A stretch of 42,703 bases of DNA from an uncultured Saprospiraceae bacterium (GTDB lineage Bacteria; Bacteroidota; Bacteroidia; Chitinophagales; Saprospiraceae), in assembly GCA_938015805.1 (NCBI GenBank), contig CALLXF010000009.1, forward strand, positions 1-42,703, given 5' to 3'. The notes under the pieces are model-generated. The model searched no databases, was not told the DNA's origin, and saw only the letters and a program-made list of their open reading frames with translations. Positions 2,745 through 8,599 of the stretch are shown in pieces. Made by a program: the position numbers and the translations under genes. Each line of letters starts with the position of its first letter. The first letter of the stretch is position 1.

Positions 2745-5567
2745 TTATATTGAGATAGAGGCTTCTAAATTTTCCATTCTTTTTAGTTGCAGGTAATGGC
2801 GTTTATATAGAAAAATGATAATTATTAAAATGGCTATTATAAATATAGTTGATGGTTCGGACATCCGTCTCGTATCGTCTTCCGTATCCAGAGATTTTTT
2901 ACCTGCTAGGACTTGTTCTTGTTTTTTTAAGAGCATTGCTTTTTGAGCTTCATTTTCTACCACGATAAAAGATGTAACGGGTGTAAGTATGCTACTAGTA
3001 AAACTATTTTTGATAAGGGAAAGCCACAGGTCCTCTGATAGGTCAGGATAAAGGAGTTGTTTTTTCCATTGTACATTTAGAAATAGAGTATTGTTCCAGT
3101 AATTTTTATTGGACTGTTGTCCAATGTTTTTATCGGGTTTTACATAAATACTGGCTTGTTTATTATCAGCAAGATATATTATCTTGCCATCTTTTAGTGG
3201 GAGTTGTTTGACAGGAATTTTGTGGTGTGGTCTGGAGTATTCTAGTTTTATTGTACTCGATTTAAATAATGGATGTGCATCCAGTAATCCTGTGTAATCG
3301 CATGTGTAATAAGGATTGCCTTCCGGCGAACAAAATCGCAGATCCTCAAAATTAACATTGGCTATAGAAGAAATATCTGGATTAAAAAGAACCATAACGG
3401 GATACGAGTTAGTATTGTTTTTGTACGCTTCTACTAGAGTTTTACGGACTGCTCTCTGTAAAAAATAACCGGCGGATTCTGATTGAATTTTATGATCGTG
3501 TTTACAATCCTTTTTGCAAGTATATGTATGTACTTCCGAATTGATCAAAGATATTTTTGCATTCTCAGCTAGTTCTGGATACTTTGTTTTTAGTTGATCT
3601 ATTGTTTTATAAAAAGTGTCTATGTTATAGTCTTCTGATGCTACATCTATCATAAAATGAAAATATGGATTACGAGTAACTGTGTCTAATTTAATTTTCT
3701 CTACTGCTGGTATATAAACAAGTTGTTCATTTTCGATAATAGCAACATCATGATTAGCTTTTGGGCCTAATGAGATTGTCCTATTATCTATATTTAGCGT
3801 TACAGCTTCTTTGTGTATAAACTCTATCCCGGTTTTACGCACTTCGTTCCGACCAAAAGGGAAGACTCTAAAAGTCACTTTGTTTCCAGTAGTGTAGTGT
3901 AATAATCCGGGGTCTCTATTTTGATTTCTAATCTGATTAAAAACCCACATTGCTGATTTTTTTTCTGTCAGTAAACCCATTTCTTTTTTATCACCGACAT
4001 ATAGATAGTAATCACTGATAAAGCAGGCCTCTGGTAGATCTAAAGTCGTTATATATTCTTGGTTAGGACGATCGAGATGGTTTTTTATATCTAGATGTAT
4101 CCATGATCTATAGACTTTTTGGTTTATGTCATAAGTAGTTTCTGTTTTTAAATCTTGGATTATGACTTGCCTATTAGGAAATTGAGTATCGTTTACTGGA
4201 AAAGAAGGCTCTCCTAAAAATACAGCTTCTAGATGTTCGATCTTAGTATTAGATAGTGTTAGGTTATCGAGGATGAGCCATTTAAAATATGATGACAGAT
4301 AAGGTAATTCGTTTCCTATCCAAAAGTTATTATTTCTCGTTTTGTGTGTCTTTATTTTACGGATGGTTTTAGAGAGCCTGTCAACATCTATATCATAGTC
4401 TTTATCGTAATCAGCATGGTAAATGTAGTCTATGGCGTTATGTAACGTTTTTCTAGTTTCTAAAAAATTACAAGTAATGATTGTAGGAATGATTATAAAA
4501 CTGACAACTCCTATTATTTTTAGTGATATGGTGGACATCTTATTTTTTAGATAAGCGTAATCTTGAGATATCTGGATTGCTTGTACTACAAAAACGATGA
4601 GAGGAGTAAGCATTAAAAATCCTAGGCCAAAAGCAATAATCGCAATAACAGATAGAGGTAAATAAGGCAGAAATACGATAAGGAAATAAAATATATACGA
4701 GAACCCTCCACATCTAATCGCAAATAAAAAGATCCGTATTTTTTTATTTTCTACTGAAGGAATACACAGAAATAATCCATTGGCGAAAGCCAAAATATAA
4801 AACCATAAATTACTGAAATCTCCAAAAATAAACTGGATGTAGTTATCCTTAAATAGAAGACCATTATTTAATGCAAGACCTAATAATGGAAAAATGATGC
4901 AAATAGGAATCTTCCATAAAAGCGGATAATTATAAAAAAGTCCTTTTCTTTTAAGAGTAAGAATATACATCCCTCTCACTAAAAAGAATATAAAAATGAC
5001 TACTCCTATGATGCTAAGTATAATCATAAGATGCTGTGAAAAATTATAGCTTATTTTTTGCCATAAGGGAAAAATCAATAGTGAACCTAGGTACCAGCTA
5101 ATAGGAACTGCTGCAGCTAATAAAAAGTTAAACCACGGTTTTTTGGATTCTATTTCTTTTGTAAAATTAGTGATGAGTATAAATAAGCTATAAAGTAAAG
5201 TAGGCATTAAAAATGTGGCAGGGTAAAGTTCTATAGTACTTGATTTCATCCATCTAGGAATGGAAGCTGGTATAAATTCTCCTATATGATTTAGGTGCAT
5301 GTAAATAAAAGTGATATATCCTATGAGGGTGGCGATCGCATAAAAAACGTGAACTCTTTCTTTAAAAGTGATACTTATGACAGTATAGATAATATTAACG
5401 ATACCTAGTCCGGCTATGATCCATCCTGTCTCAATCCATCGGGTAATAGAGTCTGTATCCAGAAGAGAGTGGATGATTTGAAATTGCCCTCTTAGGAGAA
5501 ATAGAAGTAAGACTAAGGGAGCAGTATTTACAATGAGTAAACATTTTGGATTAGAAAGACTTTTCAC
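2745..5567 (-). CDS. MSEP-CTERM protein, cognate substrate of exosortase K
   Basis: This 940-aa protein has many hydrophobic segments between about residues 10 and 365, then a soluble region of over 500 residues. The C-terminal signal is MSEP at residues 902-905, then a strongly hydrophobic helix (IFIIAILIIIIFLY), then basic KRHYLQLKR. That three-part architecture defines MSEP-CTERM proteins, the partners encoded next to exosortase K (Haft's exosortase families, TIGR04286/TIGR04287). The start is GTG at 5567, inside the end of xrtK (17-bp overlap), with no in-frame ATG close by, so translational coupling to xrtK is likely. It is expected to be cut near MSEP and transferred to an unknown acceptor at the inner membrane. 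The biological role is unknown. The family call rests on the C-terminal motif plus the neighbour. Confidence 0.85.
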   Translation of the reverse strand: MKSLSNPKCLLIVNTAPLVLLLFLLRGQFQIIHSLLDTDSITRWIETGWIIAGLGIVNIIYTVISITFKERVHVFYAIATLIGYITFIYMHLNHIGEFIPASIPRWMKSSTIELYPATFLMPTLLYSLFILITNFTKEIESKKPWFNFLLAAAVPISWYLGSLLIFPLWQKISYNFSQHLMIILSIIGVVIFIFFLVRGMYILTLKRKGLFYNYPLLWKIPICIIFPLLGLALNNGLLFKDNYIQFIFGDFSNLWFYILAFANGLFLCIPSVENKKIRIFLFAIRCGGFSYIFYFLIVFLPYLPLSVIAIIAFGLGFLMLTPLIVFVVQAIQISQDYAYLKNKMSTISLKIIGVVSFIIIPTIITCNFLETRKTLHNAIDYIYHADYDKDYDIDVDRLSKTIRKIKTHKTRNNNFWIGNELPYLSSYFKWLILDNLTLSNTKIEHLEAVFLGEPSFPVNDTQFPNRQVIIQDLKTETTYDINQKVYRSWIHLDIKNHLDRPNQEYITTLDLPEACFISDYYLYVGDKKEMGLLTEKKSAMWVFNQIRNQNRDPGLLHYTTGNKVTFRVFPFGRNEVRKTGIEFIHKEAVTLNIDNRTISLGPKANHDVAIIENEQLVYIPAVEKIKLDTVTRNPYFHFMIDVASEDYNIDTFYKTIDQLKTKYPELAENAKISLINSEVHTYTCKKDCKHDHKIQSESAGYFLQRAVRKTLVEAYKNNTNSYPVMVLFNPDISSIANVNFEDLRFCSPEGNPYYTCDYTGLLDAHPLFKSSTIKLEYSRPHHKIPVKQLPLKDGKIIYLADNKQASIYVKPDKNIGQQSNKNYWNNTLFLNVQWKKQLLYPDLSEDLWLSLIKNSFTSSILTPVTSFIVVENEAQKAMLLKKQEQVLAGKKSLDTEDDTRRMSEPSTIFIIAILIIIIFLYKRHYLQLKRMENLEASISI
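4776..4795. repeat. Dispersed hairpin repeat, GAAA-loop type, copy 1
   Basis: The 20-bp string TCCATTGGCGAAAGCCAAAA recurs exactly at 23272-23291 in an unrelated gene. Its core TTGGC-GAAA-GCCAA is a 5-bp stem with a GNRA-type tetraloop. Here it lies inside the MSEP-CTERM gene and encodes part of LAFANG on the minus strand. Confidence 0.55.
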
Positions 5568-6105
5568 GGGCTAAGTTTTTAGGAGTGATTTTATCGAGTA
5601 GTAAATAAAAAAAGACAAGGCAACTGAGATATACAATAACACCTATAGATTCATGTATAATAGGGTAGTAGTGATTCCATGATAAAGGTGTTATCTGATT
5701 TGTGAAAATAGAAACTATGATTCTGGAGCTATTAGTAAATAACGTTAAGGTATATGCGATAATAATCGAGGCTAATAAAGTAGATGTTTTTAGTAGAGGT
5801 CGATGACATCTAGGAATGATCAAAAAGGAGATCATTACAAATGAGATCAAGAAAAAATTAAATCCAGAACAGGATTTGTCGATAATAATATCTAAATCTT
5901 TAAAGTAATATCCTTCTTGCGGTTTATAGTTGCTGTGTGCTCCTGTAAACAGACTAATTATTTTATTTATGGGACTTAGTAAAAATTGTAGGTCATCCGT
6001 ACTGGTATTTCTATACCAAAGTTTTAGTATTAGAAATATTGCAGCGACTATACCTGTTATCGTTAGTTCGATTAATGTATTGGAATATTTCCTTAATTGT
6101 GGCAT
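5551..6105 (-). CDS. xrtK: Exosortase K
   Basis: A 184-aa integral membrane cysteine transpeptidase-like enzyme. The exosortase/archaeosortase catalytic set is visible: Cys79 in DKSCSGFNFF, Arg128 in TNSSRIIVSI and His151 in IIHESIGV, each next to a membrane segment. The short length fits the compact exosortases. It is followed, with a 17-bp overlap, by the MSEP-CTERM gene, the known partner of this subtype, so it probably processes that single protein. The ATG at 6105 is the only good start. The upstream region carries a nested inverted repeat (6133-6250) that could regulate the pair. Confidence 0.88.
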   Translation of the reverse strand: MPQLRKYSNTLIELTITGIVAAIFLILKLWYRNTSTDDLQFLLSPINKIISLFTGAHSNYKPQEGYYFKDLDIIIDKSCSGFNFFLISFVMISFLIIPRCHRPLLKTSTLLASIIIAYTLTLFTNSSRIIVSIFTNQITPLSWNHYYPIIHESIGVIVYLSCLVFFYLLLDKITPKNLAREKSF

Positions 6106-6569: not shown

Positions 6570-8084
6570 TTATAAGCCTAATGCATAATAATACTTTCCC
6601 GGAATATCTGTATAAACACCTTCGAGCATAATACCGCCTTCTTTATCTTCTAAATGTTCTAGTAGATCATTCATATTTTCGATCTTTTTATTATCGATGT
6701 GAGTAATAATAAAGTTATCTCGCATCTGGGTTTGTTTACGGATTTTTCCTGGAAATATTTTTTGCACGATTACGCCAGACTCTATATCTAGGTCAGCAAG
6801 TTGATCGGGTGTAGTATTCTCTATTCTTGCTCCTAAAATTTTTAGGGCTTTACCCGACTCTTTACTTAATTCTTCTGTATTTCCTTCTCTATGATAAAGT
6901 GTTACTGGAATCATTTGTTCTTTACCAGAACGATTGATGTATATGTCTACTTTTTCTCCTGGTCGATGTTGTGCAATCGCAGCTTGTAATTCCGAAGAGG
7001 TATTTACAGAAAGCTCATCAACCTTCGTGATAATATCTCCGACTTTTAATCCTGCGTTTTGAGCAGCACTTTTTTGTAAAATACTATCGATATAAATACC
7101 TTTGGAAATATTGATATTTTTTTCACGAGCAAGAGTACTATTTACCGTTTTAATCATTATTCCTAAGGCTCCTCTTTGCACCACCCCGAATTCCATTAAA
7201 TCTTCTACAACTTTCTGTACTATATTAGAAGGGACGGCAAATCCGTATCCAGCAAAGCTACCTGTCGGACTAGCAATAGCTGTATTTATTCCTATGAGTG
7301 CACCATTAAGATTAACCAATGCTCCACCACTGTTCCCAGGATTAATTGCGGCATCTGTTTGAATAAAATTTTCAACAGCGTATTTATCCTTGAGAATATT
7401 TATATTTCGTCCTTTTGCACTTATAATTCCAGCTGTAACCGTCGAGTTAAGACCCATCGGGTTTCCTACAGCCATAACCCACTGTCCAATTTTAACATGA
7501 TCAGAATTTGTTAAAGGAACCGTTGGTAGATTAGATTCTTTGATTTTTAGTAAGGCAATATCAGTAGATGGATCTGCACCTACTACGATGGCTTTATAAG
7601 TACGATTATCATGCAGTGTAATATCTATATCATCAGCACGATCTATGACATGGTTATTAGTAACGATATACCCATCTTTACTGATGATAACTCCTGATCC
7701 GGATCCTACTCTTGCCGGGGAACTATGGGACTTACTTTTACCTCCATTGGGGAAGAAGAACTCCTTCTTAAACTGGTCTCCAAAAAAATCTCTAAAAGGA
7801 TCTGGAATGCTTTGGAAGTCAGAAGAGGGTACTGTATTATGATGCAATGTGGTTGACTTTATATGAACAACTCCATCTAAAACAGAACTGGCAGTTTCGT
7901 TAAAGTCTAATGGAATCGCCTTACCATTATCATCTACTGTAAATACTGCTTTCTGACTCGGAATTGTATTTACATGCTCTATAGTTATTGTTTTTTTTTC
8001 GGGTCTAAAATGAGTAATTATACCCATAGCTGATAAACTTACAATCAAAGCAATCAAGCCCGAAAAGATCAAATTTCTTTTCAT
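6570..8084 (-). CDS. htrA: HtrA/DegP-type periplasmic serine protease
   Basis: This 504-aa protein begins with a signal anchor (residues 5-24). The trypsin-like domain (about 65-300) carries the triad His145 (TNNHV), Asp175 (STDIALLK) and Ser252 (NPGNSGGAL). A first PDZ domain (about 305-400) has the substrate-binding loop RGALGI and the motif AGLKVGDII. A more divergent second PDZ domain follows (about 410-500). This is the usual HtrA architecture: a periplasmic protease/chaperone that degrades misfolded envelope proteins. It is encoded beside Hsp20 on the same strand, a protein-stress neighbourhood. The ATG at 8084 precedes a good signal sequence. Confidence 0.93.
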   Translation of the reverse strand: MKRNLIFSGLIALIVSLSAMGIITHFRPEKKTITIEHVNTIPSQKAVFTVDDNGKAIPLDFNETASSVLDGVVHIKSTTLHHNTVPSSDFQSIPDPFRDFFGDQFKKEFFFPNGGKSKSHSSPARVGSGSGVIISKDGYIVTNNHVIDRADDIDITLHDNRTYKAIVVGADPSTDIALLKIKESNLPTVPLTNSDHVKIGQWVMAVGNPMGLNSTVTAGIISAKGRNINILKDKYAVENFIQTDAAINPGNSGGALVNLNGALIGINTAIASPTGSFAGYGFAVPSNIVQKVVEDLMEFGVVQRGALGIMIKTVNSTLAREKNINISKGIYIDSILQKSAAQNAGLKVGDIITKVDELSVNTSSELQAAIAQHRPGEKVDIYINRSGKEQMIPVTLYHREGNTEELSKESGKALKILGARIENTTPDQLADLDIESGVIVQKIFPGKIRKQTQMRDNFIITHIDNKKIENMNDLLEHLEDKEGGIMLEGVYTDIPGKYYYALGL

Positions 8085-8155: not shown

Positions 8156-8599
8156 CTACTTGATTTTAATCTGTCGTACAGGTTTTTCTTTAGCCTCTTC
8201 TTTTTTTGCTAAATGGATTTGTAGAATTCCGTCTTGGTAAGAAGCATCGATTTTTTTGCTATCTACTAAACTAGAATTGAGATTAAATATCCGCTGGAAT
8301 TGAGTGTAACAAAATTCTCTGCGAGTGTACTGATCCTTGTTTTCTTTATCTCTGTTTTCTTTAGCCTCTCCTTTAATACACAATGTGTTGTTTTTTAATT
8401 CGATATTAAAATCTTCTTTTTTCATACCCGGTGCAGCCAGATGGACTATAAAGTGTTCGTCGTTTTCTTGGATATTTACTGAGGGTAAAGTTGAATTAGA
8501 ATTGGAGAAATTTCTATTTGTCCAATCGAAAAGATTATTCCAGTCGTCTTCAAAAAACCTTGAGACAGTTGGAAGTAAATTTGATTTTACTGGTAACAT
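8156..8599 (-). CDS. Small heat shock protein (Hsp20/alpha-crystallin family)
   Basis: A 147-aa cytoplasmic ATP-independent holdase chaperone. The alpha-crystallin domain covers about residues 38-140, with the conserved PGMKKEDFNIEL and a late DGILQIHLAK segment. The C-terminal tail ends RQIKIK, holding the I-x-I-type motif used in oligomer assembly. The length is typical. It has its own TAnnTTTG promoter box about 50 bp upstream and is followed 71 bp later by htrA, which could be co-transcribed. Confidence 0.92.
   Translation of the reverse strand: MLPVKSNLLPTVSRFFEDDWNNLFDWTNRNFSNSNSTLPSVNIQENDEHFIVHLAAPGMKKEDFNIELKNNTLCIKGEAKENRDKENKDQYTRREFCYTQFQRIFNLNSSLVDSKKIDASYQDGILQIHLAKKEEAKEKPVRQIKIK

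Follow-up and report, generated by a model that had tools for sequence, protein, structure and literature searches.

Exosortase K and its MSEP-CTERM Substrate in an Uncultured Saprospiraceae Bacterium: A Proposed One-Enzyme, One-Substrate System and an Inferred Exchange of Sorting Signal in Hymenobacter

Introduction

Exosortases of the PEP-CTERM/EpsH type carry a Cys-Arg-His triad, which is common to exosortase K (XrtK), and their systems comprise a median of eight substrates per genome (PMC1569441). The same work also reports integral membrane PEP-CTERM proteins, a single family of three members. Exosortases are suspected to be transpeptidases (PMC11980579), and homologues of phosphatidylserine synthase and decarboxylase take part in archaeosortase-dependent maturation (PMC7157517). 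Deletion of the gene for another exosortase, xrtF of Flavobacterium johnsoniae, is reported to have affected surface colonisation and biofilm (PMC10936215). The described system closest to the present locus is the pair of XrtK and the MSEP-CTERM protein (NCBIfam families TIGR04287 and TIGR04286). Such a pair was analysed in a stretch of 42,703 nucleotides from an uncultured Saprospiraceae bacterium (assembly GCA_938015805.1, contig CALLXF010000009.1, positions 1 to 42,703 of the forward strand; hereafter the window), in which the two genes overlap on the (-) strand at positions 2745 to 6105. An initial annotation had described them as a dedicated exosortase K with a single, multi-pass substrate.

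Enzyme and gene pair

The window pair shares with the XrtK/MSEP-CTERM system scores far over the family cut-offs, the adjacency of the genes and the tail of the substrate, and nothing essential differs. Judged by sequence, it is a plain member of two curated NCBIfam families and thus of a known kind. The following features belong to the gene pair:

5551 to 6105, (-): xrtK, exosortase K, 184 aa (TIGR04287, 147.2 bits, cut-off 55)
5869 to 5871, (-): codon of Cys79, the presumed nucleophile (C in 69 of 69 aligned XrtKs)
5722 to 5724, (-): codon of Arg128 (R in 69 of 69 aligned XrtKs)
5653 to 5655, (-): codon of His151 (H in 69 of 69 aligned XrtKs)
5551 to 5567, (-): overlap of xrtK with the substrate gene, 17 nt (exactly 17 nt in 43 of 70 two-gene relatives)
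2745 to 5567, (-): MSEP-CTERM protein, 940 aa, GTG start (TIGR04286, 831.2 bits, cut-off 150, residues 2 to 927)

The identification as exosortase K made in the initial annotation is thereby placed far beyond chance, and the protein also matches PF09721 (28.7 bits, cut-off 25.7). The triad that had been read from the window alone proved invariant in an alignment of the window XrtK with those of 68 of 70 relatives (alignment A4; the near copies L085 and L086 were left out), and the overlap of the two genes was recovered with the same coordinates and strand. In the hydropathy profile Cys79 starts one hydrophobic segment, Arg128 lies after the next and His151 before the following one, so the triad should share one membrane face. 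This is taken to be the outer face by analogy with the published topology of EpsH (PMC1569441), from which the assignment is borrowed and not computed. The AlphaFold2 (AF2) model of XrtK reached a predicted local distance difference test (pLDDT) score of 91.8; its comparison with the Protein Data Bank gave nothing at E <0.001 (best E 0.38), a result that is uninformative in either direction.

Substrate tail and membrane topology

The substrate, whose AF2 model has a pLDDT of 87.2 and a predicted TM-score of 0.86, was divided as follows:

4470 to 5543, (-): eleven predicted membrane helices, residues 9 to 366 (alignment-averaged hydropathy, charge bias)
3828 to 4142, (-): VIT domain, residues 476 to 580 (PF08487, 32.2 bits, cut-off 26.5)
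3213 to 3677, (-): vWA-like domain with degenerate metal site, residues 631 to 785 (VIA-align vWA matches, Z up to 9.3)
2904 to 2984, (-): return segment TPVTSF and next helix, residues 862 to 888 (within the heavy chain 1 match)
2853 to 2864, (-): MSEP motif, residues 902 to 905, presumed processing site (M[STPAD]EP in 70 of 80 relatives)
2748 to 2849, (-): C-terminal helix and basic tail, residues 907 to 940 (helix 907 to 939 in the AF2 model)

In the predicted topology, eleven helices are thus followed by a loop of about 535 residues, and a twelfth helix comes behind MSEP. The loops in which positive charge is enriched assign the N-terminus and the basic tail to the inside and the large loop to the outside, and after residue 920 a mean of 6.0 Lys/Arg is set against 0.6 Asp/Glu (alignment average). 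Both structural claims of the initial annotation, a tail of MSEP, membrane helix and basic end and a multi-pass protein with a soluble domain of more than 500 residues, agree with this picture. The pLDDT falls below 50 at residues 898 to 906 around the motif, as is expected of an accessible linker; the model accordingly predicts a flexible MSEP linker, and the topology predicts its position at the outer membrane face. A chance origin of the tail was ruled out by the TIGR04286 family score. The alignment used for folding (A3) contained the window protein and those of 73 of the 80 relatives; L085 and L086 (near copies), L136 (3' end cut), L152, L154, L161 and L163 were left out.

Substrates per genome and co-occurrence with XrtK

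In the source genome (3.59 Mb, 118 contigs, 98.8% complete), the exosortase/archaeosortase profile TIGR04178 gave a single match, the window XrtK; this profile is not fully sensitive and missed 2 of 15 Hymenobacter XrtKs (G538, G590). The VIT domain PF08487 likewise had a single match, the window substrate. With a DNA pattern covering MSEP and MTEP, 27 matches were obtained (10 MSEP, 8 MTEP, 9 other), and a C-terminal sorting tail was present at one of the 18 M[ST]EP sites, that of the window. None of the other 17 M[ST]EP sites resembles a sorting tail, the pattern being limited to MSEP and MTEP (MPEP, MAEP and MDEP, rarer variants seen in relatives, fall outside it). The two sites that come next in hydrophobicity belong to open frames of 24 and 102 codons, which are implausible as membrane-anchored proteins. 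The expectation that no further MSEP tails would be found was therefore borne out for these sites, alongside one exosortase match. The several substrates per genome that mark EpsH-type systems were not encountered: one tail was found among the 18 M[ST]EP sites, and PEP-CTERM tails were not searched.

A single-sequence search of the genome contig collection retrieved no relative. An alignment of nine proteins, used against the same collection, yielded 174 relatives, of which 80 were kept; locus counts refer to these 80. They belong mainly to the Bacteroidota, and records labelled Leptospiraceae, Spirochaetia, Treponema, Fibrimonadales and Elusimicrobia are also present. The TIGR04286 cut-off was exceeded in 6 of 100 related genomes (that of the window included) and in 5 genomes of an even sample of 395 from the phylum, 4 of the 395 also exceeding the XrtK cut-off. 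The fifth TIGR04286 genome, without XrtK, is a Hymenobacter (G262, same place as G509). Three other genomes of the genus had no TIGR04286 match over the cut-off, two of them being only 73% and 64% complete. At E 0.001, TIGR04286 matched in 32 of 100 and 80 of 395 genomes (full matches counted), the weaker matches mostly covering the VIT stretch only.

In 70 of the 80 relatives XrtK is encoded upstream of the substrate gene on the same strand, the two genes overlapping or being separated by no more than 290 nt. Tails of the form M[STPAD]EP also number 70 (62 MSEP, 5 MTEP and one each of MPEP, MAEP and MDEP), and 69 of these loci have XrtK, the exception (L088) beginning at a contig edge. In L136 XrtK is present and the sequence is cut before the tail. 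The nine remaining loci have neither XrtK nor an M[STPAD]EP tail, so that the ten relatives without XrtK upstream consist of L088 and nine Hymenobacter loci. Distances between XrtKs and between substrates were correlated (r = 0.89, 69 loci; 0 of 1000 permutations as high), which indicates that the pair travels together. The single-substrate pairing called dedicated in the initial annotation is thus upheld by the family models, the genome counts and the 80 relatives; it is not absolute, one Hymenobacter clade keeping the substrate without XrtK and with a tail like the targets of another exosortase.

Exchange of the sorting signal in Hymenobacter

The nine XrtK-less loci, each with at least 2.9 kb of upstream sequence, all belong to Hymenobacter and are the same nine that lack MSEP; in their tails P[ILV]D is followed by a hydrophobic stretch and then by basic residues (PID type). 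Among 120 Hymenobacter genomes, 41 had a substrate match and 40 a readable tail. Fifteen of these tails are M[ST]EP, every one with XrtK upstream, and 25 are of the PID type, none with XrtK. Genome-wide, XrtK was found in 15 of the 120 genomes, exactly those with M[ST]EP tails. The PID_CTERM profile (NF046080) matched all nine switched proteins that were scanned out of the 25 (E 2e-12 to 0.012), five of them over the cut-off.

The exosortase XrtX (NF046081) matched in 83 of the 120 genomes, in 82 of them over the cut-off. It was present in 24 of 25 PID-tailed, 4 of 15 MSEP-tailed and 55 of 80 other genomes (Fisher tests, uncorrected for shared ancestry: 24/25 vs 4/15, p = 6e-6; 24/25 vs 55/80, p = 0.007). 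PID_CTERM matches were obtained in 12 of 12 genomes with XrtX (1 to 6 per genome) and in 0 of 5 without it (17 tested); the substrate accounts for some of these matches and small open frames for the others, and the tails of four small ones that were read closely resemble one another. XrtX presumably acts on PID-CTERM tails, an assumption whose backing in this analysis is co-occurrence. The four MSEP-tailed genomes that hold both XrtK and XrtX represent the intermediate state that such a switch needs. Both enzymes are present in H. norwichensis, H. elongatus and H. crusticola, and H. persicinus is a PID-tailed species; the cultured species with the XrtK pair include H. norwichensis and Dokdonia pacifica.

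A quick tree was calculated from 40 Hymenobacter rows and 22 hand-picked outgroup rows, with SH-aLRT (Shimodaira-Hasegawa-like approximate likelihood ratio test) values as sole support. Columns after window residue 880 were removed so that the tail could not shape the topology; G543 (broken gene) was excluded from the tree and the tail counts, and G516 (first part in another frame) was kept. All 25 PID-tailed proteins fall into a single clade (SH-aLRT 100), placed next to and nested among MSEP-tailed relatives, which points to one switch that was inherited afterwards. An SH-aLRT of only 91 supports the branch by which two MSEP lineages are kept outside, and the program warned of long outgroup branches and uneven composition.

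Several XrtK loci are flanked by aconitase and a thioredoxin-like gene upstream and by DUF2459 and a subtilisin-like gene downstream, all four being present in L139, L141 and L143. Four of the nine PID loci (L147, L152, L157, L161) keep two to four of these neighbours, and here the absence of XrtK looks like loss in place; the other five have different neighbours. No XrtK remnant was detected upstream of the PID-tailed genes in any of the nine loci tested (best E 0.57). From these data we infer that XrtX serves the former XrtK substrate in one Hymenobacter clade, and the switch suggests that selection acts to keep C-terminal processing.

Two further loci are recorded here as observations in their own right. 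In the Hymenobacter locus L281 (G543:C1:3891500-3897000) the MSEP-family gene is broken, with matches in at least four pieces, and two XrtX genes remain. In L165, XrtX and an XrtX-associated membrane protein share a single frame (357 aa), the second part scoring under the cut-off (65.9 of 75 bits).

Ectodomain

The VIT domain, on which the initial annotation had not remarked, is a feature expected of the heavy chains of inter-alpha-inhibitor; the cut-off of PF08487 is exceeded here, as listed above. In a profile search the best solved match was heavy chain H4 of inter-alpha-inhibitor, with the VIT part covered (E 0.0074). With Foldseek, the only matches at E <0.001 were three chains of heavy chain 1 (6FPY, 6FPZ; E about 1e-8), and VIA-align gave a Z of 10.4 between residues 464 to 885 of the model and residues 47 to 652 of a heavy chain 1 chain. 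Since many unrelated vWA domains reach Z 8 to 9.3 at residues 631 to 785, it is the combined span that makes the likeness specific. Identity was 9 to 12%, overall root-mean-square deviation 9 to 13 Å and TM-score 0.2 to 0.3, values which imply that the domains are arranged differently from heavy chain 1. The fold matches concern the ectodomain; the eleven-helix part was not folded or searched alone and is barely tested by them.

The metal site of the vWA domain in heavy chain 1 is formed by Asp298, Ser300, Ser302 and Asp403 (PMC7170535). In the window family a functional site of this kind is not preserved: Asp641 is kept in 74 of 74 aligned proteins and Ser643 in 69 of 74 (Ala643 in the window protein), and position 645 is variable. 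The model suggests an ectodomain made of a VIT and degenerate vWA unit with a fold like that of an inter-alpha-inhibitor heavy chain.

Neighbouring genes

Envelope genes stand beside the pair, on the same strand, in 20 of the 80 loci, which represent several bacterial families (Flavobacteriaceae, Marinifilaceae, Chitinophagaceae and Saprospiraceae, as assigned from genus or record title). The recurrent neighbours are CreD, a SanA-like DUF218 protein, DUF1361, DUF4153, DUF2809, a Coq4-like protein and two unnamed families, and in several of the 20 loci they are separated by gaps of less than 15 nt or overlap. In two loci of Saprospiraceae (L123, L127), CreD precedes XrtK by 10 and 58 nt. Five loci (L100, L105, L107, L108, L112) contain a tight run of DUF4153, the small protein c13, the SanA-like protein, DUF2809, DUF1361, XrtK and the MSEP-CTERM protein, and a Coq4-like gene is present in three of the five. 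Clustering over the 80 loci was performed with open reading frames of at least 100 aa, one representative per cluster being named, with no shuffled control. For the representatives of the recurrent families c0 and c13, neither Pfam nor NCBIfam gave a match at E 0.01. The NCBIfam names refer to cell envelope integrity for CreD and to outer membrane permeability for SanA, the SanA match being under its cut-off (203 of 363 bits). Among the matches listed in a literature search on CreD, SanA and the DUF names, none was pertinent. The neighbourhood points weakly to envelope upkeep. A free two-gene cassette, which the differing neighbours in the first loci had suggested, was dropped because 20 of 80 loci share envelope genes.

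Beside the window pair itself, an HtrA-like protease with a PDZ domain and an Hsp20 are encoded upstream of XrtK on the same strand (6570 to 8084 and 8156 to 8599, (-)). The substrate gene is accompanied by a small protein with an EGF-like stretch (2164 to 2631, (-)) and by a protein without family match (1406 to 2035, (+)).

Discussion

The pair of XrtK and the MSEP-CTERM protein is proposed to be a one-enzyme, one-substrate exosortase system that acts as outlined below, a reading to which we assign a probability of about 80%. It builds on the observed genes, triad, tail, predicted topology and fold, and co-variation of enzyme and signal. Eleven helices would hold the substrate in the inner membrane with the heavy-chain-like VIT and degenerate vWA domain outside, and the twelfth helix with its basic tail would pin the C-terminus temporarily. 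Cys79 of XrtK, aided by His151 and Arg128, would attack next to MSEP at the outer membrane face, and the enzyme would free the twelfth helix and hand the new C-terminus to an acceptor (transpeptidation), most likely a membrane lipid by analogy with what is proposed for archaeosortase. The substrate would stay in the membrane, gaining a modified C-terminus beside its outside domain, and might in this form serve cell-envelope integrity.

Several points weigh against this reading. Cleavage, transfer, acceptor and role are inferred. No envelope neighbours stand beside the window pair, and none were detected in 60 of the 80 loci, the flanking sequence being short in some of these. In Hymenobacter, four of the nine scanned tails fall under the PID_CTERM cut-off, one PID-tailed genome (G587) has no XrtX match, and the 55 of 80 genomes that hold XrtX without a usable substrate gene make its presence unspecific. 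The switch is moreover a single event in the tree and therefore one natural experiment rather than 25.

XrtK might only cut, leaving a free carboxyl end with nothing attached and an outside domain freed to move. The eleven helices already anchor the protein, so that no new anchor is needed, unlike in PEP-CTERM proteins, and no acceptor is known; we nevertheless regard this as rather unlikely in view of the suspected transpeptidase nature of exosortases (PMC11980579) and the phosphatidylserine enzymes of archaeosortase maturation (PMC7157517), neither of which concerns XrtK. The overlapping genes and the correlated distances would also suit a stable complex in which the tail serves docking or assembly and covalent chemistry plays no part. 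This is highly improbable: the triad is invariant throughout the aligned XrtKs, and a docking element does not predict that, where Hymenobacter XrtK was lost, the tail becomes the signal type of another exosortase subfamily.

The PID tails themselves could be products of decay after the loss of XrtK, with no functional switch to XrtX. The tails below the cut-off, the broken gene in G543, the start in another frame in G516 and the general frequency of XrtX in Hymenobacter (83 of 120 genomes) speak for decay; it remains an improbable account of 25 tails that all retain the P[ILV]D motif, the hydrophobic stretch and the basic end across a clade with end branches of up to 0.54 changes per column. 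The distribution of XrtX between PID-tailed and MSEP-tailed genomes, with the reservation on shared ancestry given above, and the absence of an XrtK remnant in the nine loci tested argue in the same direction.

The literature searched, from which most subscription journals are absent, contained no paper naming "exosortase K" or "MSEP-CTERM" and none combining any two of exosortase, PID-CTERM, XrtX, XrtN and XrtK; among the matches listed, no paper joins sortases with inter-alpha-trypsin. As far as this search extends, neither the switch of signal nor the heavy-chain-like fold nor the neighbourhood of envelope genes has been described. A single substrate makes the question of what exosortases attach tractable, with one protein, one C-terminus and one mass to be followed. 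The Hymenobacter switch amounts to a natural signal swap that laboratory work could repeat, and it speaks for retention of the processing as well as of the protein. The likeness to heavy chains would give a concrete idea of the role of the ectodomain once conjugated.

Comparison with known systems

Predicted helices number eight or more in EpsH, which usually has many substrates; XrtK has 184 aa and one substrate. A parallel to the window substrate outside its own family is the XrtN-system VIT protein (XrtN and its substrate, TIGR04476 and TIGR04477), with which it shares the multi-helix membrane part, the VIT domain and a C-terminal signal. Six XrtN substrates, all over the TIGR04477 cut-off, were compared, and a profile match (probability 99.5) to window residues 244 to 602, i.e. 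the last helices and the VIT domain, was obtained. All six end in VPEP[HR]EW followed by a hydrophobic stretch, as opposed to the MSEP tail of the window protein. The XrtN gene (over the TIGR04476 cut-off) directly follows the VIT substrate in L081 and L082, the reverse of the XrtK order. Membership of the window pair in the XrtN system was rejected on its scores of 35.6 and 55.9 bits against cut-offs of 200 and 250. TIGR02921, a PEP-CTERM family by its description, which may be the three-member integral membrane family mentioned in the Introduction, gave 21.8 bits in the VIT region of L158, far below its cut-off of 200, and also matched one of the six XrtN substrates (E 4e-6). In the XrtX/PID-CTERM system (NF046081/NF046080), the same substrate would be served in one Hymenobacter clade; the exosortase subfamily and the signal are different.

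Inter-alpha-inhibitor heavy chain 1 (6FPY, 6FPZ) has the same domain order of VIT, vWA and return strand as the window ectodomain, which differs from it in the incomplete metal site and in the eleven extra membrane helices; there is no evidence of a counterpart of its sugar acceptor for the window protein. The modelled likeness concerns the fold, not family membership. It is suggestive because the C-termini of heavy chains become ester-linked to chondroitin sulfate once a C-terminal pro-domain has been removed (PMC7170535). We tentatively propose, at somewhat less than even odds, a bacterial class of polytopic proteins in which the ectodomain resembles inter-alpha-inhibitor and the function requires chemical conjugation of the C-terminus. 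At least three different exosortases (XrtK, XrtN and XrtX) would serve this class, and selection would have re-wired one lineage from XrtK to XrtX on loss of XrtK. If this is true, bacteria and animals would share the combination of a heavy-chain fold and a conjugated C-terminus.

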